Assembly: GCA_944384015.1 (NCBI GenBank)
Contig: CALWRT010000045.1
Coordinates: 1 to 64,000, forward strand
Origin: an uncultured Lachnospiraceae bacterium
Lineage (GTDB): Bacteria > Bacillota > Clostridia > Lachnospirales > Lachnospiraceae
DNA: 64,000 nt
Direction of reading: 5' to 3'
The position numbers and the translations under genes were made by a program. This document shows, one piece after another, positions 20,581-46,788 of this stretch. Numbering within the stretch: the first letter of the stretch is position 1; each line of letters begins with the position of its first letter. The notes beneath the pieces were generated by a model. It was not told the DNA's origin, made no database searches, and saw only the letters and a program-made list of their open reading frames with translations.

Positions 20581-20749
20581 ACTATAAAAGCCCAGTCACA
20601 AAGCAGAGGCGGAAGGACTGCAGGCAGTCCAAGACGGCTATGCTTATGGGACGCTTACCCAAATGAGCAAGAAGGCCGACAGGCCGGATTGCGAATAGGG
20701 TATGAATGGCGGGAGCACATAGTGCGAAGCCATTCAAGGCTTTTATAGT
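20581..20749 (+). repeat. Structured interspersed repeat, copy A
   Basis: A 169-bp element bounded by a perfect 12-bp terminal inverted repeat, ACTATAAAAGCC/GGCTTTTATAGT, with TAAT directly on both outer flanks (a possible 4-bp target duplication). Internal hairpins: GGACTGC/GCAGTCC (near 20608-20623), GGCC/GGCC (near 20672-20684) and GCAC/GTGC nested within ATGGC/GCCAT (near 20705-20732). Copy B at 17698-17858 keeps the layout but changes stem sequences in a compensatory way. It could be a MITE-like repeat or a structured RNA. Confidence 0.8.
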
Positions 20750-29742: not shown

Positions 29743-31878
29743 ATGGGAACTATTTTAATCAGCGGAAATACGGAGCTGTTTACAGAGAACGTTATAGAAC
29801 GTCTGGCGGAAGAATATAAGGTGATTATAGCTGGGAAAATCTCGGTTTCCGATAAGAATAAGCGAGTAAGAGTCTATCATACACAGCCTGCAGAAGAACA
29901 GTTTCATCAATTGTTCGACGTCTATAGCTTTCAGGCAGTATACTACATAAGCGGATACGCTGACGGAGGAAGAGGTCTGTACGGCGAGATGCAGCAGCTG
30001 GAACAGGTGATGCTGGAATGCGGAAGATCCAGGGTAGAGAAGCTGATAGTCCTGTCCACCCTGGAGAGCCAGAACTATATATTAGGGTATGAGGGTACGG
30101 AGGGGACAAAGGAGTATTCCTCCTCACGGAATTTTGCGGCTGGACAGATGGAGCAGCTCTGCAGATATTTTGTGGAGAAGACGAAGATACGCACTGTCGT
30201 ATTGAGACTGCCGTATTTGGCAGACAGAGTGAATGAACACAATTTTCTTGGAGAAGTATTCCGCTGCATGTATGAGGGAGAACGGGTAATGCTTCCGTAT
30301 CACAGGGAGGATCCGATCGATTTTCTTACGATGTCCGATCTCACGGAATTGCTCTGTCAGATTACAGACGAGACAGAAGATTCCAGCGGGACCTATGATG
30401 TGGTAAGCGGGTATCACTATCAGTATGGAGATCTGGAAGATATGCTGATGCTGGCTGTGCCCGGACAGCAGGTTGTATATGAGAACTATCCCTTCACCGC
30501 TCAGCTGCCTGATTATCCCTATGAATTGAGAAGGAAGTACGGATTTGTCCCGAAAGACAATGTAATGGAAAATATTGGGGCGTACTACCGCATTTATGCG
30601 AGGGAGACTGCGGGAGGAAGGAGGGGACTCGGCGGAAAACTGATGGACATAGCCCGCAGAGCAGGCAAGGGAATATTCAAATATATTGAGTTGATACTCG
30701 TCTTTCTTGCGGCAGAGATTATCAGTTATTTTACTTCCGATTCTATCTATTTCCGTTTTGTCGATGTTCGGCTGTGTTATGTGGTGATTATGGGGACGAT
30801 TCACGGCATGCGTATGGGACTGTTCGCGGCGCTGTTGGAGAGTCTAGTCCTTATTAGAGAATATGCCGTGATAGGAATGAGCGGGACGCTGATTTTTTAC
30901 AATATAGAGAACTGGATTCCGTTCGTCGTCTATCTGACGGCGGGTTCTATTGCAGGTTATGTGTGCGATAAGAGGGGGAACGACCTTTCTTTTACAAAAT
31001 GGCAGTATTCTCTGCTGAGGGATAAATATTTGTTCTTGAGCAATGTATACCACGGAGCTGTAGAGAATAAAGGACAATATAAGAAGCAGATTTTGGGATT
31101 CAAGGACAGTTTCGGCAAAATTTTTGACGCGATCCAGAAGCTGGACAGTGAGCTCCCCGAGAGCGTATTTTTTGATGGACTCAAAGTGTTGGAAGATATA
31201 CTGGAAAATCATACGATTGCCATCTATACGCTGGATTCCTGGCAGAAATTTGGAAGGCTGGCAGTATGTTCCAGCAGCCAGCTGCATAATCTCACCAAAT
31301 CCATTCTCATAGAAGATTACAAGCCAATGTATGAAAAGCTAAAAAGCGGTCAGGTATGGAAGAACACGGATATGGCAGAAGGTTATCCCATGTATGCCTG
31401 CGGCATCTTCCAAAACGGAGAAATGGTGCTGATGATCACAATACAGAAAGCGGAGCCGGAACAGTATGGCATGCACTATATGAATATTTTCCAGATACTG
31501 TGCGGGCTTGTACAGGCGTCATTCCTGCGGGCGAGAGAGTACGAAGAGCTTGCGGAAGAGCGGATTTATTACCCGGATACGCATATTATCTATCCGGATC
31601 GATTTTATCACTTGCTGAGTGTGCAAAAGGAGATGAAGCAGTCTGGTGTTGCCGACTATGTGCTGGTGCGGTTCCTGGACAAAGATAAGAAGCGGATCAG
31701 TGAACTGCTCGCGGGGCTCGTGAGGGCAAGCGATGTTCTGGGGACAGACGAGGAAGGAAATATTTACTTGCTGCTTGTGCAGATGGATGAGAAGAATTTC
31801 CGAATTGTCGGCGACCGGCTGAAGCAGAAGGGGCTGAAATACGGCATTGTTCAACAGGAAGGCAGGAGAGTAGAGTAA
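29743..31878 (+). CDS. pelD: SDR-PelD fusion, c-di-GMP receptor of the Pel-type locus
   Basis: A 711-aa fusion. Residues 1-285 form an SDR/NAD-dependent epimerase-like domain (MGTILISGNTELFTENVIERL; VVLRLPYLAD). Around residues 305-405 come several membrane helices, then a GAF-like domain (about 430-580) and a C-terminal degenerate GGDEF domain. There the inhibitory-site motif RASD (R661-D664) is intact while the catalytic GGDEF position reads EEGNI (670-674). PelD in Pseudomonas binds c-di-GMP at this RxxD site to switch on polymer synthesis. The same role is inferred here. The N-terminal domain may be a PelX-like epimerase or a structural relic; the usual YxxxK motif was not located with confidence. 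Confidence 0.85.
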   Translation: MGTILISGNTELFTENVIERLAEEYKVIIAGKISVSDKNKRVRVYHTQPAEEQFHQLFDVYSFQAVYYISGYADGGRGLYGEMQQLEQVMLECGRSRVEKLIVLSTLESQNYILGYEGTEGTKEYSSSRNFAAGQMEQLCRYFVEKTKIRTVVLRLPYLADRVNEHNFLGEVFRCMYEGERVMLPYHREDPIDFLTMSDLTELLCQITDETEDSSGTYDVVSGYHYQYGDLEDMLMLAVPGQQVVYENYPFTAQLPDYPYELRRKYGFVPKDNVMENIGAYYRIYARETAGGRRGLGGKLMDIARRAGKGIFKYIELILVFLAAEIISYFTSDSIYFRFVDVRLCYVVIMGTIHGMRMGLFAALLESLVLIREYAVIGMSGTLIFYNIENWIPFVVYLTAGSIAGYVCDKRGNDLSFTKWQYSLLRDKYLFLSNVYHGAVENKGQYKKQILGFKDSFGKIFDAIQKLDSELPESVFFDGLKVLEDILENHTIAIYTLDSWQKFGRLAVCSSSQLHNLTKSILIEDYKPMYEKLKSGQVWKNTDMAEGYPMYACGIFQNGEMVLMITIQKAEPEQYGMHYMNIFQILCGLVQASFLRAREYEELAEERIYYPDTHIIYPDRFYHLLSVQKEMKQSGVADYVLVRFLDKDKKRISELLAGLVRASDVLGTDEEGNIYLLLVQMDEKNFRIVGDRLKQKGLKYGIVQQEGRRVE

Positions 31879-31892
31879 AGTTGGGAGTTTTA

Positions 31893-32765
31893 TTGCTGAT
31901 TATTCATATTCTATTATGCATAGCGGTCTACCTATGTATGCGTGTCAGGATATTGAAAAGCACGTCCATGATCATGCCGCTTGTGTGCATGGTTCCGGCG
32001 GCAGGCCTGGCCGCGCTGATCGTGCTGGAAATCAGAAGCCGGGGCAGGCAGGAAATTCTGGAAGAAGTAGGCATCGAGAAATTGAAAATTAATGATGAAA
32101 TCCACAGGAGCATCCTGATGGATGAAGATCCCGCTGAAGACCGGATTGTTCCGCTGCAGGAGGCGCTGCTCATCAATGAGCCGTCCACCCGCCGGGAATT
32201 GATGATGGAGATCATGTACGCCAATCCCAACGATTATGTGGAACAGCTCAAAGAGGCCAGTATGAATGATGACACAGAGGTAGTGCACTATGCAGTGACA
32301 GCGCTGTCAGAACTTCAGAAAGAATACGACCTCCAGTTCCAAGATTTGGAATGGCAGATGAAAAAGGATCCGGATAGCGAGGAATTAGAAGAGCGATATA
32401 CAAACCTGCTCCGCAGATATCTGGACAGCGGTCTGGCAGAAGGCAACGCTAAGATGATAAAGCTTCGGACATACAGCGAGATGCTGGAACGGAGGCTAAA
32501 GGAGAAGGAGGACAGCCTTCGGCTGTATCGGGATAAAGTTGAAACTGACCTTCAAATCAAGGAGTATGAGAAGGCATATGAAATGATTGAGAAGGTATTA
32601 GAAAAATGGGAGAAAAATGAGGCCGGATATCTGCTTTTGCTGAAATATTACGCGGCGATGAACAGAAGAAGAGGTATTGACAGCGTGCTCCGATCCATCG
32701 AGAGAAAAGGAATCTATTTGAGTCCAGAGGGCAGATCGGCTGTCCGTTTCTGGTCGGAGGAATGA
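31893..32765 (+). CDS. pelE: PelE-like membrane protein
   Basis: A protein of about 290 aa with two N-terminal hydrophobic helices (LLIIHILLCIAVYLCM and MIMPLVCMVPAAGLAALIVLE) and a long helical, charged C-terminal part with TPR-like character (residues 110-290). Size, topology and position between pelD and the DUF2194 genes fit PelE, which helps assemble the synthase complex. A TTG at 31881 lacks a good SD; the TTG at 31893, five bases from GGGAG, is preferred. The identification rests mostly on context. Confidence 0.72.
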   Translation: MLIIHILLCIAVYLCMRVRILKSTSMIMPLVCMVPAAGLAALIVLEIRSRGRQEILEEVGIEKLKINDEIHRSILMDEDPAEDRIVPLQEALLINEPSTRRELMMEIMYANPNDYVEQLKEASMNDDTEVVHYAVTALSELQKEYDLQFQDLEWQMKKDPDSEELEERYTNLLRRYLDSGLAEGNAKMIKLRTYSEMLERRLKEKEDSLRLYRDKVETDLQIKEYEKAYEMIEKVLEKWEKNEAGYLLLLKYYAAMNRRRGIDSVLRSIERKGIYLSPEGRSAVRFWSEE

Positions 32766-32816
32766 GATAGTACGGATGAAATCAGTATTTCTATAAAGAA
32801 CAGCAGGTGACAGACA

Positions 32817-34655
32817 ATGAGAAGGGCAAGAAGAAAGCGGCCGTTTCATCTCCAATTTAGACGAATGCAGGCGATCATTGGAGCTTTTATCTGCATAGCG
32901 GTGTTTTTATATCTTGTACAGAGGAATGTAAGCTATCAGCCTCGGAGCAGGCTGCTGGAGCCAGCTGACCAAGACCTTTTGAGCGAAGAGATTCCTGAGC
33001 AGGAAGCGGAATGTCTGATCTTATGGCAGGACGACGCCAGCGGTCTGAGCGGCCTTGCCATGATGGAGAGTGTCTTGGGGCAGATGAAGATTCCGTACGA
33101 TACATGTGAGGGAATCCAGATGGAACCGGAGCATTTGGCGGCTTATGAGACTGTAATATTGTCTATGACGCAGTATAATCTCCTGGGTGACCGGCTGCTG
33201 GATATACTTGACTGGACAGAAAGCGGAGGAGGGCTGCTGATTCTATATCCCCCAGACGGCAACGGAAGCTTCCAGAGTATTGCCCCGCAGCTGGGCATCC
33301 AGAGTCTGGGAAGCAGTATGGCAGTGGTAGAGGGCCTGCATTTTGTCGGCCCGCTCATGATTGGCGGACAGGAGAAGGATTATAAAATTACAGATCCTTA
33401 CGAATCCTCTCTGATGGCAGTTTTGGACTCTGACTGTGAAGTCTATCTGGAATCAGACGATGAGGCGAAGGTTCCCCTTATTTGGAAGAAGAACCAGGGC
33501 GAGGGGACGATTGTTGTGAACAATATGGGATTTTTGGAGAAGGCGTACCGGGGATTTTACAGCGCGTCTTACAGCCTTCTTCAGGATGTGTGCGCCTACC
33601 CGGTTATTAATGCGTCCATTTTTTATATCGATGACTTCCCGTCGCCGGTACCAGGAGGAGAGAGCAATTATATTCAGGAAGATTACGGCATGAACATCAG
33701 TGACTTCTATACGCAGGTCTGGTGGAATGATGTTTATAACCTGGGGAAGGAGTACGGCATCCGCTATACAGGGCTTGTGATCGAACAGTATTCTGACCAG
33801 GTGGAGGGAGAGTTCCAGAGGAACGAGGATACCCAGCGGTATCGCTATTTTGGCAATATGCTCCTCGGCGCAGGCGGAGAGATCGGATTTCATGGCTATA
33901 ACCATATGCCGCTGTGCCTGCTTGGCTTTGAATATGGGGAAGAATATGAATCTTACCGCCTATGGCCGAGCTATGAAGATATGCGGGCGTCTATCACAGA
34001 GCTCGCGGGATTTTGCGCCGAACTATTTCCGGAAGAGAGATTCCGGGTGTATGTTCCGCCGTCGAATATCTTGTCTGAAGAAGGACGGGAGATGCTCAGC
34101 CGGGAGATGGAGGATCTGGCGGCAATTGCCAGTATTTATTTCCCAGGTACTGTGGAATATGAGCAGGAGTTCGATGTAGGGGAAGATGGAATTATCAATA
34201 CCCCCAGGGTGATTTCCGGATATGTACTGGATGATTACATGCAGATCGCGGCGCTGTCGGAACTGAATTTTCACTATGTAAATTCTCATTTCCAGCATCC
34301 GGACGACGTTCTGGACGTGGACAGAGGGGCTGCTCTCGGGTGGGAAGAATTGTTCCATCGCCTGTCAGACTACGTGGAGTGGCTGTACGAAGCGGCTCCT
34401 GACATCCGGACATTGACAGGGACGGAGATGGCCGGGGCAGTACAGAGATATGACGCGATAGGGGTAGAGAGGGAATGGTCGGAGGGAAGACTGGTACTGA
34501 ACCTGACAAATTTCCTGGATGAGGCATGGTTTTTCGTCCGCGTCAACGAGGGTACCCCAGGGACTGTGACTGGCGGGACGCTCACACAGGTTCAAGAAGG
34601 GCTGTACTTGCTGGAGGCCTGGCAGGAACAGGTGGAAATAGAAATTTTGCAGTAG
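32817..34655 (+). CDS. DUF2194 protein, PelA-like polysaccharide deacetylase (active-type)
   Basis: A 612-aa protein with one N-terminal membrane anchor (IIGAFICIAVFLYLVQ), a flavodoxin-like region (about 65-260) and a carbohydrate deacetylase-type C-terminal half. The metal-ligand signatures are present: FYIDDFPSP with D272-D273, and GFHGYNHMP with H359 and H363. A conserved VYVPPSNILSEEG loop follows. DUF2194 proteins take the PelA deacetylase place in Gram-positive Pel loci, so it probably removes acetyl groups from the nascent extracellular polymer. It is 52 bp after pelE and is followed by a degenerate paralogue. Confidence 0.82.
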   Translation: MRRARRKRPFHLQFRRMQAIIGAFICIAVFLYLVQRNVSYQPRSRLLEPADQDLLSEEIPEQEAECLILWQDDASGLSGLAMMESVLGQMKIPYDTCEGIQMEPEHLAAYETVILSMTQYNLLGDRLLDILDWTESGGGLLILYPPDGNGSFQSIAPQLGIQSLGSSMAVVEGLHFVGPLMIGGQEKDYKITDPYESSLMAVLDSDCEVYLESDDEAKVPLIWKKNQGEGTIVVNNMGFLEKAYRGFYSASYSLLQDVCAYPVINASIFYIDDFPSPVPGGESNYIQEDYGMNISDFYTQVWWNDVYNLGKEYGIRYTGLVIEQYSDQVEGEFQRNEDTQRYRYFGNMLLGAGGEIGFHGYNHMPLCLLGFEYGEEYESYRLWPSYEDMRASITELAGFCAELFPEERFRVYVPPSNILSEEGREMLSREMEDLAAIASIYFPGTVEYEQEFDVGEDGIINTPRVISGYVLDDYMQIAALSELNFHYVNSHFQHPDDVLDVDRGAALGWEELFHRLSDYVEWLYEAAPDIRTLTGTEMAGAVQRYDAIGVEREWSEGRLVLNLTNFLDEAWFFVRVNEGTPGTVTGGTLTQVQEGLYLLEAWQEQVEIEILQ

Positions 34656-34692
34656 CGGGAGCTGTCAGGACAGAAGATGGAGGAGAGGCGGA

Positions 34693-36579
34693 ATGGAGAA
34701 AAAACACAGGCAGTATTTATCAGTACTTATCATTCTGGGAGTGTTTCTCCTGATCACGGCAGCCGTCCTAGGGCAGTATGGCTGGATGATCAATCTCTCT
34801 GCCCAGTCAGAGCTGGCTGTCCTGGATGATGAAGTCTTTCAGAAAAGCGCCGGCACCGAGGAGACGGAGAACGGCGGTTGGGACTGCCTCTATTTGTGGG
34901 ACAGCGAGGATGAAAACTCCCAGGTGTTCTATGAGCAGATGCCTCAGATTCTGGAAGATATGCGGGCGGATTATCATATGGAGGATATCAGCCTGGCAGA
35001 TGATGTGGATCTCCAAGGCTATGAGTCGGTGGTCATTGGATTTGCCAATTATCAGGATCACCGGGAGCTGATGCTGAACGTGATGGATTGGACAGAGCAG
35101 GGAGGCCAGCTTCTGATTGCCCAGGTGCCGGAGACTGGAAGCGTATATCGATGGATGAGCCCCAAATTGGGCGTCCGAAATATGGGAGGGACTTATTACG
35201 AGACGGAAGGAATCCGCCTTGTGAGCGATGGAATGCTCACCGGGGATACGCAGGAATATACCGTCGCTTATCCTTATGAGTCTACGCTGGTTGTGGAGCT
35301 GGACGATGAGTGCGAAATCCATCTTGTGACTGCCGACAGCGGCGAGGTGCCCATTCTATGGGAGCGGCCCGCAGGGGCGGGAAGGGTTGTGGTGGTGAAT
35401 CTTGGCCACTATGATAAGGCATACAGGGGTATTTATTCCTTTGCCTACAGCCTGCTTGGCGAATACTGCGCATGGCCGGTGATCAACGCCGCAGCGTTTT
35501 ACCTGGACGGATTCCCGCTTCCGGTCACCCAGAGCGAGAATGGCTATATTACCGCCGTATATGGGGAGAATACAGACCTCTATTCTTTCTATGTAAGAGA
35601 GTGGTGGAATGACCTGATGGAGCTGGCCGCAGAATATGGCATTCACTATTGCGCAGCTATGCTGGAAAATAACGATGATGAGGTGGAACCGCCTTACGAA
35701 GAGAAAGGGACACATAACCGGTATCAATATTTCCTGTCTATGGTGATAGAGAGCGGAGGCGACATGGGATTGTACGGCTACAATCAGCAGCCCTTGTGCC
35801 TGGAAGATCACCCTCTGGTCACTGCGGACGGAAGCACAGGGGTGGATTATGAAGAGGACTTGGGACTTGTCTATTGGAAAAGCAGGGAAGATATCGCGGG
35901 GGCTCTTGAGGAGGCCGTCAGGTTCCAGAAAAGTATATTAGATGGGGCCGATATGTGCGTGTATGTGCCTCCGTCCAATATCTGGTCCGAAGAAGGCATC
36001 CAGGTATTAAAGGACACTCTTCCTGATATTAAGGCAGTAGCAGGGAGCTATCGGGATTCCGGCTACGCGGCAGGTCAGGAATTTGAAGTGGACGAGGATG
36101 GAATGATCTGTACGCCCCGGGTAACATCTGGAAGCTATGTTTCAGAGGAGGCCAGGATGATCGCATTCTCGGAGCTGAACCTGCATTATGTGAATACCCA
36201 CGCCATCTCCCCGAATGATGTGGTGAATCCAGACGCGGGAGCAGATATGGGCTGGCCTGCTATGCTGGAAAGGCTGGAAGAGATGGAGGAGTGGCTCGCC
36301 TCGGCGGCCCCAGATCTGCGGCAGCTGAATGGGCAGGAGACGGCAGCCGCAGTGCAGAGATTTTATTACCTGGATATGAACTGCCGGGAGACAGACAGCG
36401 GCCTGGAGGTGCTGCTCTCCAACTTTCACGATGAAGCTTGGCTGATGCTTCGGCTGAATGAATGGGAGCCGGATTTGGAGGCTGTGGAGGGAGGAGAGCT
36501 GACCAGACTTCAGGGGAATTTATATCTTCTGCGGGCTGACCAGGAACAGATTACCATCCAGAGGGAGACAGGATTATGA
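34693..36579 (+). CDS. DUF2194 paralogue with lost metal ligands (pseudo-deacetylase)
   Basis: A 628-aa paralogue of the preceding protein with the same layout: one N-terminal membrane helix, a flavodoxin-like region and a deacetylase fold. The key residues differ: the DD pair is now D272-G273 (FYLDGFPLP), and the two histidines are Y361 and Q365 (GLYGYNQQP). Scaffold motifs such as CVYVPPSNIWSEEG are kept, so it is not a decaying gene. It may be a scaffold, regulator or polymer-binding partner of the active copy. It overlaps pelF by four bases. Confidence 0.82.
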   Translation: MEKKHRQYLSVLIILGVFLLITAAVLGQYGWMINLSAQSELAVLDDEVFQKSAGTEETENGGWDCLYLWDSEDENSQVFYEQMPQILEDMRADYHMEDISLADDVDLQGYESVVIGFANYQDHRELMLNVMDWTEQGGQLLIAQVPETGSVYRWMSPKLGVRNMGGTYYETEGIRLVSDGMLTGDTQEYTVAYPYESTLVVELDDECEIHLVTADSGEVPILWERPAGAGRVVVVNLGHYDKAYRGIYSFAYSLLGEYCAWPVINAAAFYLDGFPLPVTQSENGYITAVYGENTDLYSFYVREWWNDLMELAAEYGIHYCAAMLENNDDEVEPPYEEKGTHNRYQYFLSMVIESGGDMGLYGYNQQPLCLEDHPLVTADGSTGVDYEEDLGLVYWKSREDIAGALEEAVRFQKSILDGADMCVYVPPSNIWSEEGIQVLKDTLPDIKAVAGSYRDSGYAAGQEFEVDEDGMICTPRVTSGSYVSEEARMIAFSELNLHYVNTHAISPNDVVNPDAGADMGWPAMLERLEEMEEWLASAAPDLRQLNGQETAAAVQRFYYLDMNCRETDSGLEVLLSNFHDEAWLMLRLNEWEPDLEAVEGGELTRLQGNLYLLRADQEQITIQRETGL

Positions 36580-37988
36580 AGATATGCGTAATATTAGAAG
36601 GCTGTTACCCCTATGTGACAGGAGGTGTCTCCACATGGATGCATCAATATATCCAGGCGATGCCGGAGCATGAATTTGTTGTGTGGGCAGTAGGGGCTAA
36701 CGCCAGGGACAGAGGCAAATTCAAATACAAAATGCCGGAAAATGTGACGGAAGTTAGAGAAGTATTCCTGGACGACGCCCTTACTATGCGCTTTGAGAAG
36801 AAAAAGTATTCGTTCAGCGAAGAAGAGCTTTTTGCGCTGAGAGAGTTCGTCAACTGCCGCAGGCCGGATTGGGATCGGCTGTTCCGCATGTATCATGACT
36901 CGAAAGTTTCCCCGATTGAATTCCTGATGAGCGAGGATTTTCTGGAGATCCTCATCAAAATCTGTCATGAAGAGTATCCGTATACGAGCTTTTCGGATCT
37001 CTTTCACACTGTGCGGTCTATGCTGCTGCCGGTGCTCTATATTATGCAGACAGACATACCGGAAGCGGATATTTACCATGCAGTTGCCACAGGCTACAGC
37101 GGGGTGCTGGCAAGGCTTGGAGCTTACGTGAATCACGTCCCTTATATGATTACCGAGCACGGGATCTATACGAGAGAGAGGGAAGAGGAGATCATCCGCG
37201 CGAAATGGGTCCCCCCGGCCTTCAAAAGATTTTGGGTTCGATTTTTCTACATGCTGTCTGAGGCGGCTTATAGTAAGGCATCCATGATTACAAGCCTATT
37301 TGACCGGGCCAGGGAGACGCAGATCGAGATGGGCTGTGATCCGGACAGATGCCGGTACATTACCAACGGGATTCACTATAATCGTTTTAAGGATATCCCG
37401 CTGAAAAGGCCCAATGGCTATATTGACATCGGAGCGGTGCTGCGGATCGCGCCCATCAAAGACGTGAAAACACTGCTCTATGCGTTTGCCGATCTGAAGG
37501 AGCGGGTGCCCAACGCCCGCCTGCATATCGCCGGGCCGGAGGATGATGAAGAGTACGCCCAGGAATGCTATGCCCTCAAGGAGCAGCTTGGATTGGAAGA
37601 CGCCTATTTTCTTGGAACAGTCAATGTTCTGGAATATATGGAGAACTTTGACTTTACAATGCTGACAAGTATTTCTGAAGGGCAGCCGCTGGCAGTGCTG
37701 GAATCCTTCGCCGCCGGGAGGCCCTGTGTAACAACGGATGTGGGCTGCTGCAAGCAGCTCATCTATGGGATGGAGGGAGATGACTTCGGGCAGGCAGGCT
37801 TCGTTGTCCCGCCTATGCACAGGGCTGCTATCAGCGATGCGATGGAACAGCTCTGCGTCCGCCCGGACATGTGTTATCAAATGGGGCAGAACGGGAAGAG
37901 ACGAGTAGAGAAGTTCTTCCGGCATGAAGATATGATCCGCAATTATCAGGAGGCATACGACGAGGTGTTTAGAAAATGGCAGGAATAG
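36576..37988 (+). CDS. pelF: PelF, GT4 glycosyltransferase
   Basis: A 470-aa cytoplasmic glycosyltransferase that polymerises the Pel polysaccharide from UDP-sugars in known systems. The N-terminus MKICVILEGCYPYVTGGVSTWMHQ is the PelF signature. The donor-binding domain has ITNGIHYNRF and the E-x7-E motif SEGQPLAVLE near residue 370. Start and stop overlap both neighbours (four bases with DUF2194, 13 with pelG), a sign of tight translational coupling. Confidence 0.93.
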   Translation: MKICVILEGCYPYVTGGVSTWMHQYIQAMPEHEFVVWAVGANARDRGKFKYKMPENVTEVREVFLDDALTMRFEKKKYSFSEEELFALREFVNCRRPDWDRLFRMYHDSKVSPIEFLMSEDFLEILIKICHEEYPYTSFSDLFHTVRSMLLPVLYIMQTDIPEADIYHAVATGYSGVLARLGAYVNHVPYMITEHGIYTREREEEIIRAKWVPPAFKRFWVRFFYMLSEAAYSKASMITSLFDRARETQIEMGCDPDRCRYITNGIHYNRFKDIPLKRPNGYIDIGAVLRIAPIKDVKTLLYAFADLKERVPNARLHIAGPEDDEEYAQECYALKEQLGLEDAYFLGTVNVLEYMENFDFTMLTSISEGQPLAVLESFAAGRPCVTTDVGCCKQLIYGMEGDDFGQAGFVVPPMHRAAISDAMEQLCVRPDMCYQMGQNGKRRVEKFFRHEDMIRNYQEAYDEVFRKWQE

Positions 37989-40900
37989 GTTTTAGTTTGA
38001 AGCGATTGTTCAGCAAAAAAGGGGTTCTTCAGCTGTGCCGCGCCTACGGTTACGCGGGGGTGATCTGCGCCGGCCCGATGATACTGGGAGTTATCCTGCT
38101 GGCAGGCATGAGCCTAGTATCAAGACTGGCAGGGATGGATTCCCATGACAGGGAATTGATGAATTGCATGCTCACTTACAGCTTGCTCGTATCCCTTACC
38201 GTTACAAGCTGGTTCAATATGGTAACGACCAGATATGTATCGGATATGCTGTATGAAGAGAAGATGGAGAAAATTATGCCCTCTTTCTACGGAAGCTGCT
38301 CTGTCATGCTTGTGATCGGCGGAGTGCTCTATAGCATTTTTCTATTTTTCTCCGGAGTACCGTTCTTATACCAGCTTCTGTGCTTGTGGTTTTCTATGGT
38401 ACTGATTGTTGTCTGGATGCAGATGGTCTATCTGACGGCGCTGAAAGATTACAAGGGAATTGTATTGGCATTTACCATCTCCCTCATGGTTGGCTTCTTG
38501 GCGGCGCTGATCCTGGTTGTCATCGGCTGGGTGAGCATTCCAAGCCTTATGCTTTGCGTGATATTAGCCTATGGAATTTTGATGGTGTGGTATTATAAAT
38601 TGCTGCTGGACTATTTCCCTAAGAGTGATGGAAGCAAATATGCCTTTTTGCGGTGGTTCGATAAATACCGCCCGCTGGCGTTTACAGGAGGGTTCATCAA
38701 TATCGGGCTGTTCGCCCACTTGGTAATTATGTATTTCGGACCTTTGCAGGTGCAGGTGGAAGGATTGTTTTACGGGGCGCCTATGCACGATGTGCCTGCG
38801 CTGTTTGCGTTTTTTTCTATACTAATTACTACCGTGAACTTTGTCACATCCGTGGAGGTGCGGTTCTATCCGGCGTACCGGAATTATTATAGTTTGTTTA
38901 ACGACAACGGATCTATTCGGGATATTGAGCAGGCAGAGGTGGAGATGCTGTCCATTCTGAAGCAGGAGCTGACGTTTAACGGGCATAAGCAGCTGATCTC
39001 TACGATTTTGTTCATCGTGCTCGGGAGCTTCCTGCTGGAGTGGATGCCGATGGGATTTACCGATACGTCTATAGGAATTTACCGTTTTCTCTGCGCAGGT
39101 TATGGAATCTACGCCATCAGCAATACGATTATGCTGATACTGCTGTATTTTGAAGATTATGCCGGGGCCTTGGCCGGAACGTTGGCCTTCGCCGCTGTGA
39201 GCGTGGCGGCGACGATCTATCAGATACTCTTCGTGTCCCCGGTGTTTTTCGGCCTGGGATTCCTGCTGGGCGGAGTGGCCTTCTACTTCATTGTGTGGCT
39301 GAGGTTGGAATGGTATACGAGGAGGCTTCCGTATTTCCTTCTCTGCCGGAAGTCTATGGTAGCCGGAACGGAGAAGGGGCTGTTTGTGAAGCTGTGCGAT
39401 TACCTGGACGGAAGGGATCAGAAAAAGGAAGGCAAGAGGAAGAAGAAATGGAAGGCAAAACGGATGAAATCCGCCATGATGTTCTTGGCATTGTGTATGT
39501 GCGGCCTGAGCGGATGCGTCAGCAGCGGGTCAGACCAGGTGCAGGCGGAAGAGGAAAGAGCGCCAGAGGGGGACTATGTGGAGAAGGAGACGCTTGAGGA
39601 TGAGGAGGAGAAGCTCCAGGAAAACAAGCTGATTTACAGTGAAGATGACGAGACATCCGTGGTTACGATGTATCTCACCCTCAGGGAGGGCAATGAGGCA
39701 GACAATACCGATCACACATGGACAGAAGTCAATACCTATTCCACTTACTATTATGAGGACAATGGGCTGGATCGGTATAACTGCGAGGCGATTCTCCAGA
39801 TAGGAGATGAGAGAGGCCCCTTGGAAGGCGAGTTCGGCTATGGGGAAACAGTGCCCAATGCGGCCGTTCAGATACGCGGGCAGACATCCTCCCGAAATGA
39901 CCAGAAGAATTATAAAATCAGGATCAAAGAGGAGAAAGGAGAATGGCGGGGCCAGAGGACGATCGCTCTTAATAAGCATGTGGGAGATCCAATCCGATTC
40001 CGGAATAAGCTGGCATACGACTTGATCAAGGAAACCCCCCAGATGGTAAGCGCAAGAACTCAGTTTGTCCATCTCTATGTGAAGGACGAAACGGCCGGGG
40101 GAAGCGGAGAATTTGTAGATTACGGACTCTATACCCAAGTGGAACAGATTAATAAGACCTATCTGAAAAATCATGGTTTGGATAATCGGGGGCATCTGTA
40201 TAAGATTAATTTCTTTGAGTGGTATGAGTACGAAGATGTGCTGAAGCTCTCCACCGACCCGGAATATGACGTGACGGCGTTCGAGGAATACTTGGAAATC
40301 AAGGGGAATGATGATCATACGAAACTGCTGAAGACACTGCAGGATGTCAATGACTATTCGATTCCAATAGAAGAAATTGTCGAGAAATATTTTGACATGG
40401 AGAACATATGCTATTGGATGGCCTTTCATATATTAACCGGCAATTATGATGTGGGAGCCCGAAATTATTATATTTACAGCCCGCTGAATTCCGAGAAATG
40501 GTATTTTATATCATGGGACAACGACGCGTCTTTCCCCAGAACTTATTTTCGGATGAATGATGGATATCAGGATGGAGGCTCCTGGGAGAGAGGCTTGACC
40601 CAGTTTATGCATATCGTGCTGTTCAACCGTATCTTCCGGGAGGAGCAGTATCGGGATCAGCTGACGGCGGCGATTGAAGATTTGATGAACAATTATCTGA
40701 CCCAGGAGAAACTGACGGAGATGCTCAGCTCTTATGCAGAAGTGGTGAAGCCGTATGTGTACAGCATACCGGACGCGGAACATGCCCGGGTAGATGAGAC
40801 AGAGTATGATCAGATTCTCGCCGGAATGCCTGGAGAGATACAGGAGAATTATGGATATTACCTGGAGAGCCTTGAGAAGCCGCTGCCCTTCTATGTGGGC

Positions 40901-41236
40901 ACGCCTTACGAGGAAGACGGGAGGATTTCTGTCCTGTGGGATGCCTCTTATGACTTTGACGGCGAAGATATTACCTATACCTTCCTTCTGTCCACAGATT
41001 TAGCGTTCGAGAATGTGATCGCCAGCGAATATGGACTGAGGCTTCCGGAGGCGTCCTTCGATTTGCTGGAGCCGGGCATATATTACATACGGGTTCAGGC
41101 TGTCAACGAATCCGGATATGTGCAGGACTGTTACGATTATTATTCGGGGGATGAAGGCAAGATATACGGCGTGAAAGAGTTTGCTGTCCAGGCAGATGGA
41201 ACAATCACAAATGTCATAAGAGAGGAAGGAGAATAG
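37976..41236 (+). CDS. pelG: PelG flippase fused in frame to a CotH kinase domain
   Basis: A 1086-aa open frame. Residues 1 to about 470 are PelG, beginning MAGIGFSLKRLFSKKG, with about twelve membrane helices; it moves the polymer across the membrane. A basic linker (KEGKRKKKWKAKR) leads to a second hydrophobic segment starting at M497 and ending in the perfect lipobox LSGC (C514). A CotH-type kinase domain (LNKHVGDPIRFRNKLAYDL, YGLYTQVEQINKTYL, WYFISWDNDASF) and a fibronectin-like C-terminal domain follow. No stop codon separates the parts. The CotH half may also be made alone from the internal start at 39464. Confidence 0.88.
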   Translation: MAGIGFSLKRLFSKKGVLQLCRAYGYAGVICAGPMILGVILLAGMSLVSRLAGMDSHDRELMNCMLTYSLLVSLTVTSWFNMVTTRYVSDMLYEEKMEKIMPSFYGSCSVMLVIGGVLYSIFLFFSGVPFLYQLLCLWFSMVLIVVWMQMVYLTALKDYKGIVLAFTISLMVGFLAALILVVIGWVSIPSLMLCVILAYGILMVWYYKLLLDYFPKSDGSKYAFLRWFDKYRPLAFTGGFINIGLFAHLVIMYFGPLQVQVEGLFYGAPMHDVPALFAFFSILITTVNFVTSVEVRFYPAYRNYYSLFNDNGSIRDIEQAEVEMLSILKQELTFNGHKQLISTILFIVLGSFLLEWMPMGFTDTSIGIYRFLCAGYGIYAISNTIMLILLYFEDYAGALAGTLAFAAVSVAATIYQILFVSPVFFGLGFLLGGVAFYFIVWLRLEWYTRRLPYFLLCRKSMVAGTEKGLFVKLCDYLDGRDQKKEGKRKKKWKAKRMKSAMMFLALCMCGLSGCVSSGSDQVQAEEERAPEGDYVEKETLEDEEEKLQENKLIYSEDDETSVVTMYLTLREGNEADNTDHTWTEVNTYSTYYYEDNGLDRYNCEAILQIGDERGPLEGEFGYGETVPNAAVQIRGQTSSRNDQKNYKIRIKEEKGEWRGQRTIALNKHVGDPIRFRNKLAYDLIKETPQMVSARTQFVHLYVKDETAGGSGEFVDYGLYTQVEQINKTYLKNHGLDNRGHLYKINFFEWYEYEDVLKLSTDPEYDVTAFEEYLEIKGNDDHTKLLKTLQDVNDYSIPIEEIVEKYFDMENICYWMAFHILTGNYDVGARNYYIYSPLNSEKWYFISWDNDASFPRTYFRMNDGYQDGGSWERGLTQFMHIVLFNRIFREEQYRDQLTAAIEDLMNNYLTQEKLTEMLSSYAEVVKPYVYSIPDAEHARVDETEYDQILAGMPGEIQENYGYYLESLEKPLPFYVGTPYEEDGRISVLWDASYDFDGEDITYTFLLSTDLAFENVIASEYGLRLPEASFDLLEPGIYYIRVQAVNESGYVQDCYDYYSGDEGKIYGVKEFAVQADGTITNVIREEGE
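39450..39466 (+). promoter_or_regulatory. Candidate internal translation start for a free CotH lipoprotein
   Basis: Within the pelG-cotH frame, GGAAGG (39450-39455) sits eight bases before an in-frame ATG (39464-39466). Translation from it gives a 590-aa lipoprotein with signal MKSAMMFLALCMCGLSGC, nearly the same size and layout as the separate CotH lipoprotein encoded next (584 aa). Confidence 0.5.
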
Positions 41237-41239
41237 AGG

Positions 41240-42994
41240 ATGAAGAGAAAGATAAAATGGGCAGCCGGACTGGCAGGTGCGCTGATGGCCTCTGTTTTTC
41301 TCTCAGGCTGTATCATCTCCGGCGAAAGCCAGTATCTTGTGAGTGCAGACGAGACATATGAGACAGCCAGCGGCTACGATTTAGAGGATAAGAAATCGCT
41401 GTATGATGAGGACGGTGCTGAAGTAATTACCATGTACCTCACAGTAGGGCAGGGAAATGAAGAAGAGGGCACGAACTATACATGGACCCAGGTGAACAGC
41501 TATTCCATGAGTTATTATGAAGAGCGCGGAATTGAGCCATATAAGTGCGAGGCTGTCCTGCAGATCGGCGATGAGAATGGACCGGTAGAAGGAGAATTCG
41601 GCTACGGAGAGCGGGCGGCCAATGCCACGGTCAGGCTGAGAGGCACGGGCGCTTCCGAACACCAGCAGAAGAGCTACCGCATAGACATCAAGCAGGATAT
41701 GGGGAAATGGGAAGATCAGAAGGTGATTGTGCTGAATAAGCATGCGGCGGATCCTGTGCGGTTCAAAAATAAGATGGCCTATTCCCTCATGTCGGAGATA
41801 CCCCAGATGATTAGTGCCAGGACGACGTTTGTACATTTGTACGTAAAAGATAAGACAGAAGGGGAAGATGGAGTGTTCCAGGACTATGGCCTGTACACCC
41901 AGGTAGAGCAGATTAATAAGACATACTTGAGAAATCACGGCTTTGACAGCGACGGAAATCTGTATCAGGCAGTTGATTTTGACTGGGGACGCCATGAGGA
42001 CACGATTGTGAACTCGACAGACGCCGGCTACAGCCTGGAAGCCTTCGAACAATATCTGGAGGTGAAGGGAGACGAAGACCACAGTAAGCTCATAGAGATG
42101 CTGGAGGCGGTCAATGACGAGACGAACTCAATCAGCGGCGTGATAGACCAGTATTTTGACAGAGAGAATCTATATTATTGGATGGCGTTCCACATACTGA
42201 TGGGCAATAAAGATGTGCTGAACGGCAATTACTATCTGTACAGTCCCCGGGGGGTGGATACCTGGTATTTTCTATCTTGGGACAATGACAGTATATTGGA
42301 AGAGACCTACGAGGAAATGCGGGATGCCGGCTATGACCGCTCGTGGAATTATGGGATTTTTACATATACAGACTCTGTGCTGTTCCGAAGAATATTACAG
42401 GATGAGGCCTGCCGGTCAGAATTGGATATGGCGGTAAGGGATCTGCGGGAGAATTATTTAACGCAGGAAAATCTGCAGGAGAAGATGGCGGAATATGCCG
42501 AGGCAATACAGGAATATGTATACGCACTGCCGGATCGTACGTTCGCGAGAGTAACGGAAAGTGACTATGAGATCCTGCTGGGGGAGATGGCAGGCGAGGT
42601 GGAGGAGAACTTTCAGGCATATAACGAGAGTATGAATGCTCCTTGGCCTTTTCACATTTTGGCGCCTTCTGTGAGCGGGGATTCCATAACATTGAGCTGG
42701 GAGGAAGCCTATATCTTCCAGGGAGAAGAGGCTGTCTACACGGTGGAGCTGGGAGAAGACTATACCTTTCAGAATCCAATCCTATCAGAGCAGGTGACAG
42801 GAACATCCTATTCCGCCAGCGCACTCCCGGCAGGACAATACTTCCTCCGGGTAAGAGCCAGCGGAGGGGATGTTGATCAGGATGCCTATGAGTACTATCA
42901 TACCGAGGCGGGAAGTACCGTCTGCAGTACGATGTGCTTCTACGTCCAGACAGACGGAAGCATTGCCGTATCCGCCTATATAGGAGATGATTGA
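41240..42994 (+). CDS. CotH kinase family lipoprotein
   Basis: A 584-aa lipoprotein with signal peptide and lipobox (MASVFLSGC, Cys near residue 24). Its CotH-type kinase domain includes LNKHAADPVRFKNKMAYSL, YGLYTQVEQINKTYL and WYFLSWDNDSIL, and a fibronectin-like C-terminal domain follows (GDSITLSWEEAYIFQG). It is a clear paralogue of the C-terminal half of the preceding gene. CotH of Bacillus phosphorylates spore-coat proteins; here the targets would be surface proteins or the polysaccharide, which is inference. Confidence 0.88.
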   Translation: MKRKIKWAAGLAGALMASVFLSGCIISGESQYLVSADETYETASGYDLEDKKSLYDEDGAEVITMYLTVGQGNEEEGTNYTWTQVNSYSMSYYEERGIEPYKCEAVLQIGDENGPVEGEFGYGERAANATVRLRGTGASEHQQKSYRIDIKQDMGKWEDQKVIVLNKHAADPVRFKNKMAYSLMSEIPQMISARTTFVHLYVKDKTEGEDGVFQDYGLYTQVEQINKTYLRNHGFDSDGNLYQAVDFDWGRHEDTIVNSTDAGYSLEAFEQYLEVKGDEDHSKLIEMLEAVNDETNSISGVIDQYFDRENLYYWMAFHILMGNKDVLNGNYYLYSPRGVDTWYFLSWDNDSILEETYEEMRDAGYDRSWNYGIFTYTDSVLFRRILQDEACRSELDMAVRDLRENYLTQENLQEKMAEYAEAIQEYVYALPDRTFARVTESDYEILLGEMAGEVEENFQAYNESMNAPWPFHILAPSVSGDSITLSWEEAYIFQGEEAVYTVELGEDYTFQNPILSEQVTGTSYSASALPAGQYFLRVRASGGDVDQDAYEYYHTEAGSTVCSTMCFYVQTDGSIAVSAYIGDD

Positions 42995-42996
42995 GT

Positions 42997-43779
42997 ATGG
43001 CTGGGATATATAGGAAGCGGGAACAGTACCGCAGCGAGTGGAAGTACTACATATCTTTATGGGAAGCCGAGCTGCTCAAACAGCGCCTTCTTCCGTTTAT
43101 GGAGCTGGATCCTTATGCAGTAGAAGGCAAATATACGATACGAAGCCTCTATTTTGATGATTACTGGAATTCCTCCTATGAAGAGAAGATTATGGGGGTG
43201 GATAACCGCAAAAAATGGAGGATCCGGATCTACGGATTTCAGGACACCGGCATCAAGCTGGAGCGCAAGAAAAAGTGGAACAGCTATATTTATAAGAAAT
43301 CCGCGTCCCTGACGAGGGAAGAATATGACAGCTTGATGGCAGGGGAGTATGATTTTCTCCTTCATCACGAAGAGCCGCTGTGCAGAGAGTTCTACTACGA
43401 ATGTACCGTGAATCTCCAGAGACCGAAGGTCATTGTGGATTATGAGAGAGAGCCGCTGATACGCCCGGAGGGGGACGTGAGGATCACCTTTGACGCGGAT
43501 GTGCGGACCGCAGTCTCCAGCTTTGATATTTTTGATCCCGATCTCCCCACACTGGCGGTTCTCGATGAGGGGATGATTGTGCTGGAAGTAAAATTTACCC
43601 AGCTGCTGCCGGAGATGATCAAGGAGCTGCTGCCTGCGGCGGGCCAAGAATTCTCCGCGATATCAAAATACACGCTATGTTATGAAAAAGCCCATCATTT
43701 AACAGATGTGATGGCGGGAATATCTAAAACGAATAATTGGGGAAGAAAGTTTGGAAGCCAGCTTCCAAATCTGCCTTAA
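42997..43779 (+). CDS. VTC domain polyphosphate polymerase-like protein
   Basis: A 260-aa protein that is almost wholly a VTC/triphosphate-tunnel domain. Tunnel motifs are visible in order: EWKYYIS, IRSLYFDD, WRIRIYG, IKLERKKKW, KVIVDYERE, IVLEVKF and ISKYTLCYEKA, giving the expected ring of Arg, Lys and Glu. The yeast Vtc4 domain makes polyphosphate from ATP. No membrane segment is present; the DUF4956 neighbour may supply it. A TTG at 42991 overlaps the previous stop; the ATG at 42997 is ten bases from AGGAG. Confidence 0.88.
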   Translation: MAGIYRKREQYRSEWKYYISLWEAELLKQRLLPFMELDPYAVEGKYTIRSLYFDDYWNSSYEEKIMGVDNRKKWRIRIYGFQDTGIKLERKKKWNSYIYKKSASLTREEYDSLMAGEYDFLLHHEEPLCREFYYECTVNLQRPKVIVDYEREPLIRPEGDVRITFDADVRTAVSSFDIFDPDLPTLAVLDEGMIVLEVKFTQLLPEMIKELLPAAGQEFSAISKYTLCYEKAHHLTDVMAGISKTNNWGRKFGSQLPNLP

Positions 43780-43811
43780 TGACGCAGCAGGTGCGTCGGG
43801 AGGAGGAAAAC

Positions 43812-44495
43812 ATGAACTTGCAGGATTATTTTAAAAATTCCGTATGGGAATCCTTTACAAGCAGTCAGGGCCTGACGGTGGATTTTGTCGTTACGGCGAC
43901 GATTGCAATGGTACTCGCCATTGTATTGGGAATTTATATTTACAAAATTTATGGTCATTTCTTTGGAGGGGTTGTCTTTTCCAGCTCATTTGCTGCCACA
44001 TTGGTGGGGATGACGGTACTCACCTGTATGCTGACCTTGGCAATAAGCAGCAATATCGTTATATCACTCGGTATGATCGGAGCCCTGTCCATCGTACGTT
44101 ACCGGACGGCGATCAAAGATCCCATGGATCTGCTGTATCTGTTCTGGGCGATATCTATCGGGATAACCCTGGGGGCTGGATTGTATGTTCTCGCGATTAT
44201 TACAATGCTGGTGATGACAGCAGTTATCTTTTTGTTCTATAATAAAAGAAAGAGGGGGACGATTTTTATCCTAGTGGCTCATTATGAGTCAGAGATGGCG
44301 GGGGACGAGATCCTCAGGGTACTCAATAAAGTACGTCATCAGCTGAAGTCTAAGACCATCCGGGGAAACCTCACGGAGCTGACGATTGAGCTGATCAGCA
44401 GGAACAGCAATACGCTGTTCATGGAGCAGATCAATAAGATTGAAGGGGTGAAGGATGTGACACTGATTCAGTATAATGGAGAATATCATGGATAG
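43812..44495 (+). CDS. DUF4956 membrane protein
   Basis: A 227-aa protein with four hydrophobic segments in the first 150 residues, including the conserved SLGMIGALSIVRYRTAIKDPMDLLYLFWAISIG motif region of DUF4956, and a soluble C-terminal domain. DUF4956 genes commonly stand beside VTC-domain and CotH genes, suggesting that this protein forms a membrane partner or channel for the polymerase. An upstream in-frame ATG at 43737 overlaps the VTC gene; the ATG at 43812 has AGGAGG five bases before it. Confidence 0.88.
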   Translation: MNLQDYFKNSVWESFTSSQGLTVDFVVTATIAMVLAIVLGIYIYKIYGHFFGGVVFSSSFAATLVGMTVLTCMLTLAISSNIVISLGMIGALSIVRYRTAIKDPMDLLYLFWAISIGITLGAGLYVLAIITMLVMTAVIFLFYNKRKRGTIFILVAHYESEMAGDEILRVLNKVRHQLKSKTIRGNLTELTIELISRNSNTLFMEQINKIEGVKDVTLIQYNGEYHG

Positions 44496-44504
44496 GAGAA
44501 GAAC

Positions 44505-45893
44505 ATGGCCCAGAGAAGGAGTTCTAAGGCACCATATATCGTAATTCTTTTGCTTGGGGCAGCGATAGCGGGACTTCTGCTGTATATCGTCCCATACCGC
44601 TATCAGCTGAACCATACGGAAGTATACCAGGAATCAGATGATTCTCTGGACAATCCGCTTACTGGGTATGCTCCGAATGCGGAATCTGTCGAGGAATGCC
44701 AGGATTCAAAACTTGTCTATATAGGCATTCCGTGGAGCTTATGGGAGCCGGCAGAGGGAGAGTATGATATAGAGGCGCTGGAAGAGACATTTCATATCCA
44801 GAGATGGAAAGAGGAGAATAAGCATGCGGTGCTTCGCTTCCTGTGTGATGTGCCGGGGGAAGCGGGACATATGGACATCCCGGCGTGGCTGTATGACCGG
44901 ACAAGGGATGGAACCTTCTATGAGACGTCTTACGGGGGAGGGTATTCTCCGGACTATTCCAATGAATATTTCCAGGAGAGACACAGTATGGCGCTGGAGG
45001 CATTGGCCGAATATTTTAACGAAGACGATTTCCTAGCTTATGTAGAACTTGGCAGCCTGGGACATTGGGGAGAATGGCATACGAACACCGATGAGGGGGT
45101 GCCTCCGCTGCCGGATGCTCAAATCTGCTGGGAATACGTGCTGGATTATTCAGATAATTTTCACAATGCCCGGCTGCTGATGCGTAGAAATTATGTTATG
45201 GCGGCGGACGGAGGAATGGGCTTGTTTAATGATATGACGGGAAGCGCTGCCGATACCGAGGAATGGATGGACTGGATTGCCCGCGGGGGAAGCTTTGAGA
45301 CAGCAGGGGCGGACCTGACCTATGAACCAATGCCTGATTTCTGGAAGTCGGCGCCGTCCGGCGGAGAATTTACCAGTATGTATCCTATGGAGGAGCTGCT
45401 GGGAGAACGGCTGCAGGAGACGATTCAGATGATTCGGGATACCCATATGTCCTTTATTGGCCCTAAATGCCCGGAAGGAAGCCTGAAGGACAGCGCTGCG
45501 TCAGAGATTATTCGTGAGGAGCTGGGGTATCGCTATTACATATCTCAAATGCAGACACAGTACTCTTTTACAGACAGTTCCATCCAGGTAGAGCTGACAT
45601 GGGAAAATTCCGGAATCGCGCCCATTTATTGGGATTGGCCGGTGACCATGTATGTATATGACAGAGATGGGGAGCTTTCTTACTGGGAGTCGGTGGATAT
45701 CCATCTCTCAGAACTGCTTCCCGGGGAGCAGATAGTGACGGTGACAAGTATTCCGTTTACAGACAGATTCCGCCAGGGATACCGCGTAGGCATAGGAATC
45801 ACGGATCCAGATGAAATGGAGACGATTCGTCTGGCCATGGATGTGGAGATGGAAGACGGGATACATATGATATATGAATATAGCGGGGATTAA
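44505..45893 (+). CDS. DUF4832 glycoside hydrolase-like protein
   Basis: A 462-aa protein with an N-terminal membrane anchor (YIVILLLGAAIAGLLLYIV), a TIM-barrel-type region and a C-terminal beta domain. Signatures are PLTGYAPN, VYIGIPWSLWEPAEGEYD and YVELGSLGHWGEWH, as in the DUF4832/DUF4874 group related to beta-glycosidases. Glutamates in the last two motifs are candidate catalytic residues. It would face outside and may trim or modify the Pel-type polymer, perhaps covering the hydrolase part of Pseudomonas PelA. Function is inferred. Confidence 0.78.
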   Translation: MAQRRSSKAPYIVILLLGAAIAGLLLYIVPYRYQLNHTEVYQESDDSLDNPLTGYAPNAESVEECQDSKLVYIGIPWSLWEPAEGEYDIEALEETFHIQRWKEENKHAVLRFLCDVPGEAGHMDIPAWLYDRTRDGTFYETSYGGGYSPDYSNEYFQERHSMALEALAEYFNEDDFLAYVELGSLGHWGEWHTNTDEGVPPLPDAQICWEYVLDYSDNFHNARLLMRRNYVMAADGGMGLFNDMTGSAADTEEWMDWIARGGSFETAGADLTYEPMPDFWKSAPSGGEFTSMYPMEELLGERLQETIQMIRDTHMSFIGPKCPEGSLKDSAASEIIREELGYRYYISQMQTQYSFTDSSIQVELTWENSGIAPIYWDWPVTMYVYDRDGELSYWESVDIHLSELLPGEQIVTVTSIPFTDRFRQGYRVGIGITDPDEMETIRLAMDVEMEDGIHMIYEYSGD

Positions 45894-45906
45894 AGGAGGG
45901 AGCCCT

Positions 45907-46788
45907 ATGGTGACAAACAATATGTTCAGAAAAGTGCTCTTTGGCGGGTTCAATAAGGCTGATGTGGAAGAATATATCCAGACGCTGGAAAATGAGATCG
46001 ATTCGATCAAGGTACTGCACCAGAAGGAAAAAGGAGAGTGGATGCACAGGCTGGACGCGGCAAATGAGGAGATACAGGCCATGCAGGAGCAGGTGAAGGA
46101 GGCGGCAGAGGCCGTGCCAAAGGCAGATACAGAGGAGGAAGACAGGCTGAGGGATGAGATTGCCAGCCTGAGAAGCCAGCTGGAAGCCGCGAAAGAGGAA
46201 AAAGAGAAATGGATGAACTATGCAGACGAAGGGAAGCAGGACAGCGATGAAGACAGTAAGGAGAGGCCGCCTTTGCGCATAGAAGAGGAGGAAGCGTATC
46301 AGCAGCTTCGCAGAGAGAATGAGAGGCTTAAGAAGGAGCTGGAAGAGCGCAGGACAGAGGAGAGTTACGACAGGGCGGGCGAGGATGAAGGATTCGTCGA
46401 CTACGGTACTATTAAGAAAGTACTGGAAGATGCTAACCGCAATGCCCGTCTTATAGAAGAGGAGGCCAGACAGCGGGCAGATGAGCTGCTGAAAGAGGCC
46501 CAGGAAGAGATTAAGCAGCAGAAAGCAGACGCGGCCTCCAAAATGGATGCTCAGCTGGAGGAAAAGGGAATACAGCTCATTGCCGCCAAATATAAAATTG
46601 AGCAGTATGCGAAGGAACTTTGCAGTACTCAGCAGGGCATTTATAATATATACAGCCGGATGAACAAGCTGATCGAAAATATGCCGGTGCGCCTGGACGA
46701 TTATTGGGAGGGAGAGCATTACCGAATGCTGGAGGATGAACGGCGGTCTTCAGAAAATTTAGAAACAGGCCGTCTGGAGGAAGAGTGA
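45907..46788 (+). CDS. DivIVA-like coiled-coil protein
   Basis: A 293-aa soluble protein. The N-terminus, FRKVLFGGFNKADVEEYIQTLENEID, matches the DivIVA lipid-binding N-terminal motif. Residues 25-130 and 135-235 are strongly predicted coiled coil (rich in Glu, Lys, Leu and Arg). The C-terminal part is charged. It may localise the Pel machinery to poles or septa, which is inference. An upstream ATG overlapping DUF4832 is less likely than the ATG at 45907 behind AAAGGAGGG. It is the last gene of the operon. Confidence 0.8.
   Translation: MVTNNMFRKVLFGGFNKADVEEYIQTLENEIDSIKVLHQKEKGEWMHRLDAANEEIQAMQEQVKEAAEAVPKADTEEEDRLRDEIASLRSQLEAAKEEKEKWMNYADEGKQDSDEDSKERPPLRIEEEEAYQQLRRENERLKKELEERRTEESYDRAGEDEGFVDYGTIKKVLEDANRNARLIEEEARQRADELLKEAQEEIKQQKADAASKMDAQLEEKGIQLIAAKYKIEQYAKELCSTQQGIYNIYSRMNKLIENMPVRLDDYWEGEHYRMLEDERRSSENLETGRLEEE

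Follow-up and report, generated by a model that had tools for sequence, protein, structure and literature searches.

The window analysed here, a stretch of 64,000 nucleotides from the draft genome (2.78 Mb) of an uncultured Lachnospiraceae bacterium, contains at positions 29743-46788 a locus of eleven families that we read as a Gram-positive pel operon. It would belong to the published type in which PelD carries an SDR domain, with the known accessory set of CotH, VTC, DUF4956 and DUF4832 genes in a lineage-specific form, and we put the probability that it is such an operon and works as proposed below at about 0.6. The new elements are a single reading frame for the PelG exporter and the first CotH-type kinase, a second DUF2194 deacetylase without its catalytic residues, a DivIVA-like gene at the end of the locus, the residues and predicted fold of yeast Vtc4 in the VTC protein, and the occurrence of the CotH-VTC-DUF4956 trio outside Pel.

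Gene content of the pel locus

All genes of the locus lie on the forward strand, with intergenic gaps of -13 to +51 bases, and the nearest genes of opposite orientation end at 29309 and 46854. The features are the following (E, expectation value of the profile match):

29743-31878 (+), SDR-PelD: degenerate SDR/epimerase N-terminal domain, transmembrane helices, GAF-like domain and degenerate GGDEF domain with RxxD
31881-32765 (+), PelE-like protein: two transmembrane helices and a TPR-like tail
32817-34655 (+), DUF2194 copy a: PelA deacetylase-like, PF09960, E 3.5e-150
34693-36579 (+), DUF2194 copy b: pseudo-deacetylase, PF09960, E 4e-124
36576-37988 (+), PelF glycosyltransferase: NF038011, E 1.1e-105
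37976-41236 (+), PelG exporter and first CotH-type kinase: PF16933 over residues 1-453, PF08757 over residues 631-961
39464-39517 (+), predicted embedded signal peptide between PelG and CotH: basic tail, hydrophobic core and lipobox L-S-G-C, Cys514
41240-42994 (+), second CotH-type kinase: predicted lipoprotein (LSGC), PF08757, E 2.5e-59
42991-43779 (+), VTC: polyphosphate polymerase-like, predicted cytoplasmic, PF09359, E 1.9e-37
about 43812-44495 (+), DUF4956 membrane protein: PF16316, E 5.4e-10
44505-45893 (+), DUF4832 membrane-anchored glycoside hydrolase-like protein: PF16116, E 1.3e-18
45907-46788 (+), DivIVA/GpsB-like coiled coil: PF05103, E 5e-4, sub-threshold

Every part that an earlier, sequence-only reading of this DNA had named was thus found on one strand, although PelG and the first CotH, which it had counted as two genes, form one open reading frame, and the second of its two DUF2194 proteins lacks the catalytic residues. 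Both DUF2194 copies, PelF, PelG, both CotH proteins, VTC, DUF4956 and DUF4832 were confirmed with Pfam and NCBIfam. The PelE-like protein matched no Pfam family and is assigned by its position and by a conserved neighbourhood profile. PelF and PelG (NF038011, PF16933), a deacetylase with catalytic motifs and the RxxD of PelD, features by which Gram-positive Pel operons are recognised, occur together here.

PelD by itself gave no strong Pfam match, but a profile built from 24 PelDs matched UDP-sugar epimerases, including the UDP-GlcNAc 4-epimerase 3m2p, over residues 2-281 (E 5.7e-20), so that the SDR part can be taken as real. Both the glycine motif and the Tyr-Lys pair of this part are degenerate, in agreement with the clostridial PelD in the sections of Whitfield et al. 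2020 (PMC7112168) drawn on here. R661 and D664 of the RxxD motif and the distal R692 are invariant in the 24 PelDs, the RxxD is kept in nearly all loci, and the genome encodes six GGDEF proteins. The conservation of these three residues fits the control by cyclic di-GMP (c-di-GMP) that had been proposed for the locus and lends it support.

Conservation among Lachnospiraceae

PelG was found in 36 of 200 sampled Lachnospiraceae genomes, most of the genomes compared throughout being drafts and the samples not being independent draws, and CotH, VTC and DUF4956 were located downstream of pelG in 12 of the 35 loci read. These 12 extended loci fall almost wholly in one deep clade of the PelG tree, which shows a deep split between VTC-type and GT4-type pel loci; the other pelG loci mostly have a different gene set, with an additional GT4 glycosyltransferase and DUF4832. 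Presence of VTC required 7 changes on this tree against a shuffled mean of 19, although some rows scored as lacking VTC within the VTC-type clade are merely cut contigs; one locus (L059) appears to be a true loss and another (L045) a transfer. In a set of 26 loci from named genomes of close relatives, 20 had enough contig, and all 20 either carry CotH, VTC and DUF4956 after pelG or reach the contig end just past VTC (L083), which indicates that the gene order is more than chance. The closest named relatives are an uncultured Lachnospiraceae metagenome-assembled genome, Claveliimonas bilis, Candidatus Blautia faecipullorum and Merdimonas. The view that the extra genes belong to the pel locus is therefore upheld in both samples, and the co-occurrence it predicted extends for CotH, VTC and DUF4956 over one clade, but for the DivIVA-like gene only over close relatives.

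The protein encoded by this last gene scored 20.5 bits against PF05103, below the cut-off of 28 by which Pfam assigns DivIVA/GpsB proteins, yet its homologues share a conserved N-terminus with the pattern FR..LFGG.NK.DV.EYI, so the label DivIVA-like is backed by a motif and not by the family threshold. Of 19 close-relative loci, 15 have a homologue after DUF4832, in some cases as a pair of genes, and the impression from the family sample that the gene was peculiar to the window could thus be dismissed. None was found at the pel loci of more distant relatives, and no paralogue was found elsewhere in the genome. That the protein positions the Pel complex is a guess, drawn from this clade-restricted gene.

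Comparison with known pel operons

In the sections of Whitfield et al. 2020 (PMC7112168) drawn on here, streptococci and clostridia are reported to carry, as a second accessory group contiguous with pelDEADAFG, genes for cotH, a polyphosphate polymerase, DUF4956 and DUF4832, and this set to correlate with an SDR domain on PelD. The window matches these operons in all four accessory families, contiguous with the pel core, and in its SDR-PelD. Against the same sections, the PelG-CotH frame, the dead second DUF2194, the duplicate CotH and the DivIVA-like gene are particular to the window, although the fusion may be drawn unremarked in the supplementary figures of that paper. A 2025 mBio study in Streptococcus intermedius (PMC12345266) deleted each of the CotH, VTC, DUF4956 and DUF4832 genes (SIR_1591-1594) and found the DUF4832 protein SIR_1591 to be an active hydrolase. 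As in the window, the S. intermedius operon has CotH, polyphosphate polymerase-like, DUF4956-like and DUF4832 genes beside pelDEADAFG; in contrast to the window, its PelD has no GGDEF domain and its pelG and cotH are separate genes. Because of the 2020 association, in the sections used, and the 2025 deletions, the central idea of the sequence-only reading is largely published.

PelG and the first CotH share one frame

A single open reading frame of 1086 codons, uninterrupted by a stop, spans pelG and the first cotH in the window. The same single frame occurs in eight other related genomes, among them the complete chromosome of Claveliimonas bilis, and with nine genomes sharing it, one of them complete, sequencing error was ruled out as its source. 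Fusion accounts for two changes on the PelG tree, so that there were either two separate origins or a single one followed by splitting. In related loci the two genes overlap in different frames, and a small indel would therefore be enough to fuse them. All 14 other strong PelG matches in 391 sampled genomes of the class have short frames, and the fusion is therefore rare.

At the junction a basic stretch with 7-12 Lys or Arg residues is followed by a hydrophobic segment that closes with L-x-G-C, and these features of an embedded lipoprotein signal are present in 9/9 fused proteins. When the nine sequences were aligned on the Cys, the sole invariant positions among the 25 residues to each side were L(-3), G(-1) and C(0); given that the Cys was itself located through the L-x-G-C pattern, the fair reading of this alignment is that all nine proteins have one such motif there. 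Stand-alone CotH proteins are mostly lipoproteins carrying the same lipobox motif at the N-terminus. The AlphaFold2 model of the fused protein (predicted local distance difference test, pLDDT, 89; predicted template modelling score 0.56) has twelve membrane helices, a long helix at 469-509 and a disordered stretch at 510-543 that includes Cys514; the CotH fold comes next, and the C-terminal domain is rich in beta structure. With its N-terminus in the cytoplasm, a protein of twelve helices would have the PelG tail inside, and the extra helix would then take CotH outside.

From these features we infer that PelG-CotH is a polyprotein that would be lipidated and cut by signal peptidase II, for which the genome has two LspA genes. 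In Bradyrhizobium, the cytochrome b/c1 polyprotein FbcH is cut by signal peptidase I. Both chains join a membrane protein to an exported domain and both have an internal signal cut, inferred in the case of PelG-CotH; they differ in the enzyme, as the lipobox of PelG-CotH points to signal peptidase II. A literature search found no precedent for a polyprotein with an internal lipobox, which does not prove that none exists. If the proposal is correct, a bacterium makes a membrane exporter together with a surface kinase in one chain, which lipoprotein processing then splits, a simple means of forcing 1:1 assembly.

VTC, DUF4956 and CotH beyond Pel

The VTC profile matched the structure 3g3q of yeast Vtc4, and the AlphaFold2 model of VTC (pLDDT 88) superposed on 3g3r with Z 18.2 and a root-mean-square deviation of 3.2 over 224 residues, Z being lower, about 14, for other tunnel enzymes. 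Residues R77, R79 and E199 correspond to Vtc4 R264, R266 and E426, which impair the yeast VTC complex when changed together (PMC9911596), and they are invariant in 35/35 sequences. Since VTC keeps the catalytic residues of Vtc4 and, in the model, its fold, polyphosphate synthesis is plausible. The yeast complex combines the Vtc4 polymerase with a Vtc1/Vtc3 channel (PMC9911596); the window VTC shares the Vtc4-like catalytic domain and, likewise, nearly always has a small membrane partner adjacent, which suggests coupled synthesis and translocation. Unlike its yeast counterpart, the putative polymerase of the window has no SPX domain, and its partner belongs to the DUF4956 family.

VTC was present in 150 of the 200 sampled Lachnospiraceae genomes, so that most VTC genes are not Pel genes. 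Among 60 VTC loci of genomes lacking PelG, hand-picked in two batches from a score-ranked list, DUF4956 adjoins VTC in 59, and CotH is also beside the pair in 13, one of which (L150) lies on a short contig. VTC and DUF4956 are thus a near-obligate pair far outside Pel. The complete trio occurs twice more in the window genome, on contigs C24 and C160. On C24 (L072, 304-9430) CotH, VTC and DUF4956 stand directly 5' of genes for GT2 glycosyltransferases, for a sugar-phosphate transferase and for an LCP-like protein, beside a second polysaccharide locus. On C160 (L071, 2336-7746) a sigma factor, an RsgI-like gene and a lipoprotein with an RsgI-M domain and acidic DY/N/T-rich repeats are followed by VTC, DUF4956 and CotH, and the acidic repeat protein could be a CotH substrate. 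The S. intermedius study stated that the trio was not found outside Pel (PMC12345266); this restriction does not hold in Lachnospiraceae, and the correction points to a general envelope phosphate module.

Proposed working of the locus and alternative explanations

Under the proposed working, c-di-GMP bound to PelD would switch on polymerisation by PelF of a Pel polymer rich in N-acetylgalactosamine (GalNAc), which would exit via PelG and be deacetylated outside the cell by DUF2194 copy a, while the catalytically dead copy b would probably bind or hold it. VTC would make polyphosphate at the inner face and the DUF4956 membrane protein would pass it on or out, the CotH-type lipoprotein kinases would work at the outer face, and the DUF4832 hydrolase would trim or release the polymer. 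The first CotH, in one chain with PelG, would most likely be lipidated at its embedded signal and cut by signal peptidase II, with the result that the kinase is produced 1:1 with the exporter, and the DivIVA-like protein may direct the complex to its place on the membrane. The conserved gene set agrees with the earlier idea of a surface system that joins polymer export to phosphorylation or polyphosphate; the idea is less well served by its positioning element, for which there is the DivIVA-like gene only, and by the accessory genes being dispensable for Pel in S. intermedius.

The points that weigh against this working concern both the fused chain and the accessory genes. In the window an in-frame ATG, followed by AAA and preceded at a suitable distance by GGAAGG as a possible ribosome site, lies just 5' of the hydrophobic segment, so that a separate CotH start is possible in this genome alone. 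It is conceivable from this that CotH is also initiated internally, in which case the single frame would reflect no more than the lack of a stop codon and translation would yield the two products. Most of the other fused genes, however, lack any ATG, GTG or TTG 5' of the hydrophobic segment that would yield a charged signal peptide, eight of the nine being without an internal start codon suited to a positively charged one, and we consider this explanation quite improbable. A search of the draft genome for Lgt was negative; it missed the Bacillus subtilis control too, says little and was not used. A further possibility is that the chain stays uncut, with a thirteenth membrane helix tethering CotH to PelG, and that the lipobox is a relic of an ancestral, separate lipoprotein. 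The continuous helix 469-509 running into the linker of the model would suit such an anchor, and with the fused state recent on the tree relic motifs could persist; against this, it is only L, G and C that stayed invariant around the junction in nine genomes and two supported clades, the core and linker varying freely, and we think it unlikely that the chain remains whole.

As for the accessory genes, Pel was still made in each of the four S. intermedius single deletions; the DUF4956-like mutant made more Pel and the CotH mutant less, both with lower aggregation in one medium, and deletion of VTC or DUF4832 gave no aggregation phenotype (PMC12345266). The accessory genes therefore modulate the polymer and do not make it, at least there. 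In the window genome a PPK1 gene is found elsewhere, so VTC would not be the sole source of polyphosphate. VTC and DUF4956 might accordingly have no polyphosphate role at Pel loci and represent a general envelope or stress module carried in with CotH. The excess of VTC over PelG in the family sample, the position of most VTC-DUF4956 pairs outside Pel and the silent VTC deletion all speak for such a module, but the tight positional conservation in one deep Pel clade, the full retention of the Vtc4 catalytic residues and the altered Pel levels and aggregation of the DUF4956 and CotH mutants do not, which leaves it a doubtful though real possibility. More speculative still, and in our opinion very unlikely to be right as a whole, is the proposal that the surface CotH kinases take their phosphate from polyphosphate that VTC makes and DUF4956 moves outwards, since little ATP is available outside the cell. 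On this view the trio would be a portable module for extracellular phosphorylation, and in the window it would be coupled 1:1 to the Pel exporter through a PelG-CotH polyprotein that signal peptidase II cuts.

Catalytic loss in duplicated enzymes

The catalytic residues of B. cereus PelADA are D262, D263, H350, H354 and H488 (PMC13254593). DUF2194-a has intact DD, HxxxH and HPDD motifs, which match D262/D263, H350/H354 and H488/D491 of that enzyme, whereas DUF2194-b has DG, YxxxQ and SPND in the motif table, with metal ligands and catalytic acid replaced. The same loss in copy b was observed in six other loci (L075, L076, L077, L096, L097 and L099), and both copies keep most or all motifs in eight (L079, L081, L082, L083, L089, L091, L092 and L095). 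In L085 (4844-8564) neither copy has the metal-binding residues, so the Pel polymer there may be undeacetylated. The pel locus of Cuneatibacter caecimuris (L080, 3300-6500) has an in-frame stop within the first DUF2194 gene.

Both CotH copies of the window retain the equivalent of Asp228 and, as second acidic motif, WDND, and the second copy matched the solved CotH 5jd9 (E 1.5e-11). They belong to the same kinase family as the Bacillus spore-coat kinase CotH (PMC7821199; 5jd9) and share its catalytic Asp, but differ from it as predicted surface lipoproteins with a beta-rich C-terminal domain encoded in a polysaccharide operon. In other loci (L058/L084, L061, L079, L080, L081, L082 and L087) the catalytic Asp and/or the WDxD motif is wholly or partly lost from the second CotH of the pair. 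This repeated loss in second copies, of the deacetylase in one lineage and of the kinase in others, suggests that pseudo-enzymes have binding roles in matrix assembly.

Other observations

Predictions of promoters and terminators between the genes of the locus gave none standing out. A riboswitch 5' of pelD was considered and dropped, as no Rfam family reached the gathering threshold, no sub-threshold match was credible and the leader folded no better than its shuffles (z 0.00). Two nearby copies of the Clostridiales-1 RNA family (RF01699) are present on opposite strands of the window, at 17700-17856 (-) and 20586-20744 (+). Among the pel loci compared there is a second type (L036-L044, L051-L054 and L068) in which a GT4 gene is added, DUF4832 genes are present and the DUF2194-like proteins lack the usual motifs, and in many of these loci a stretch of 2.4-3 kb 3' of pelE is unassigned.

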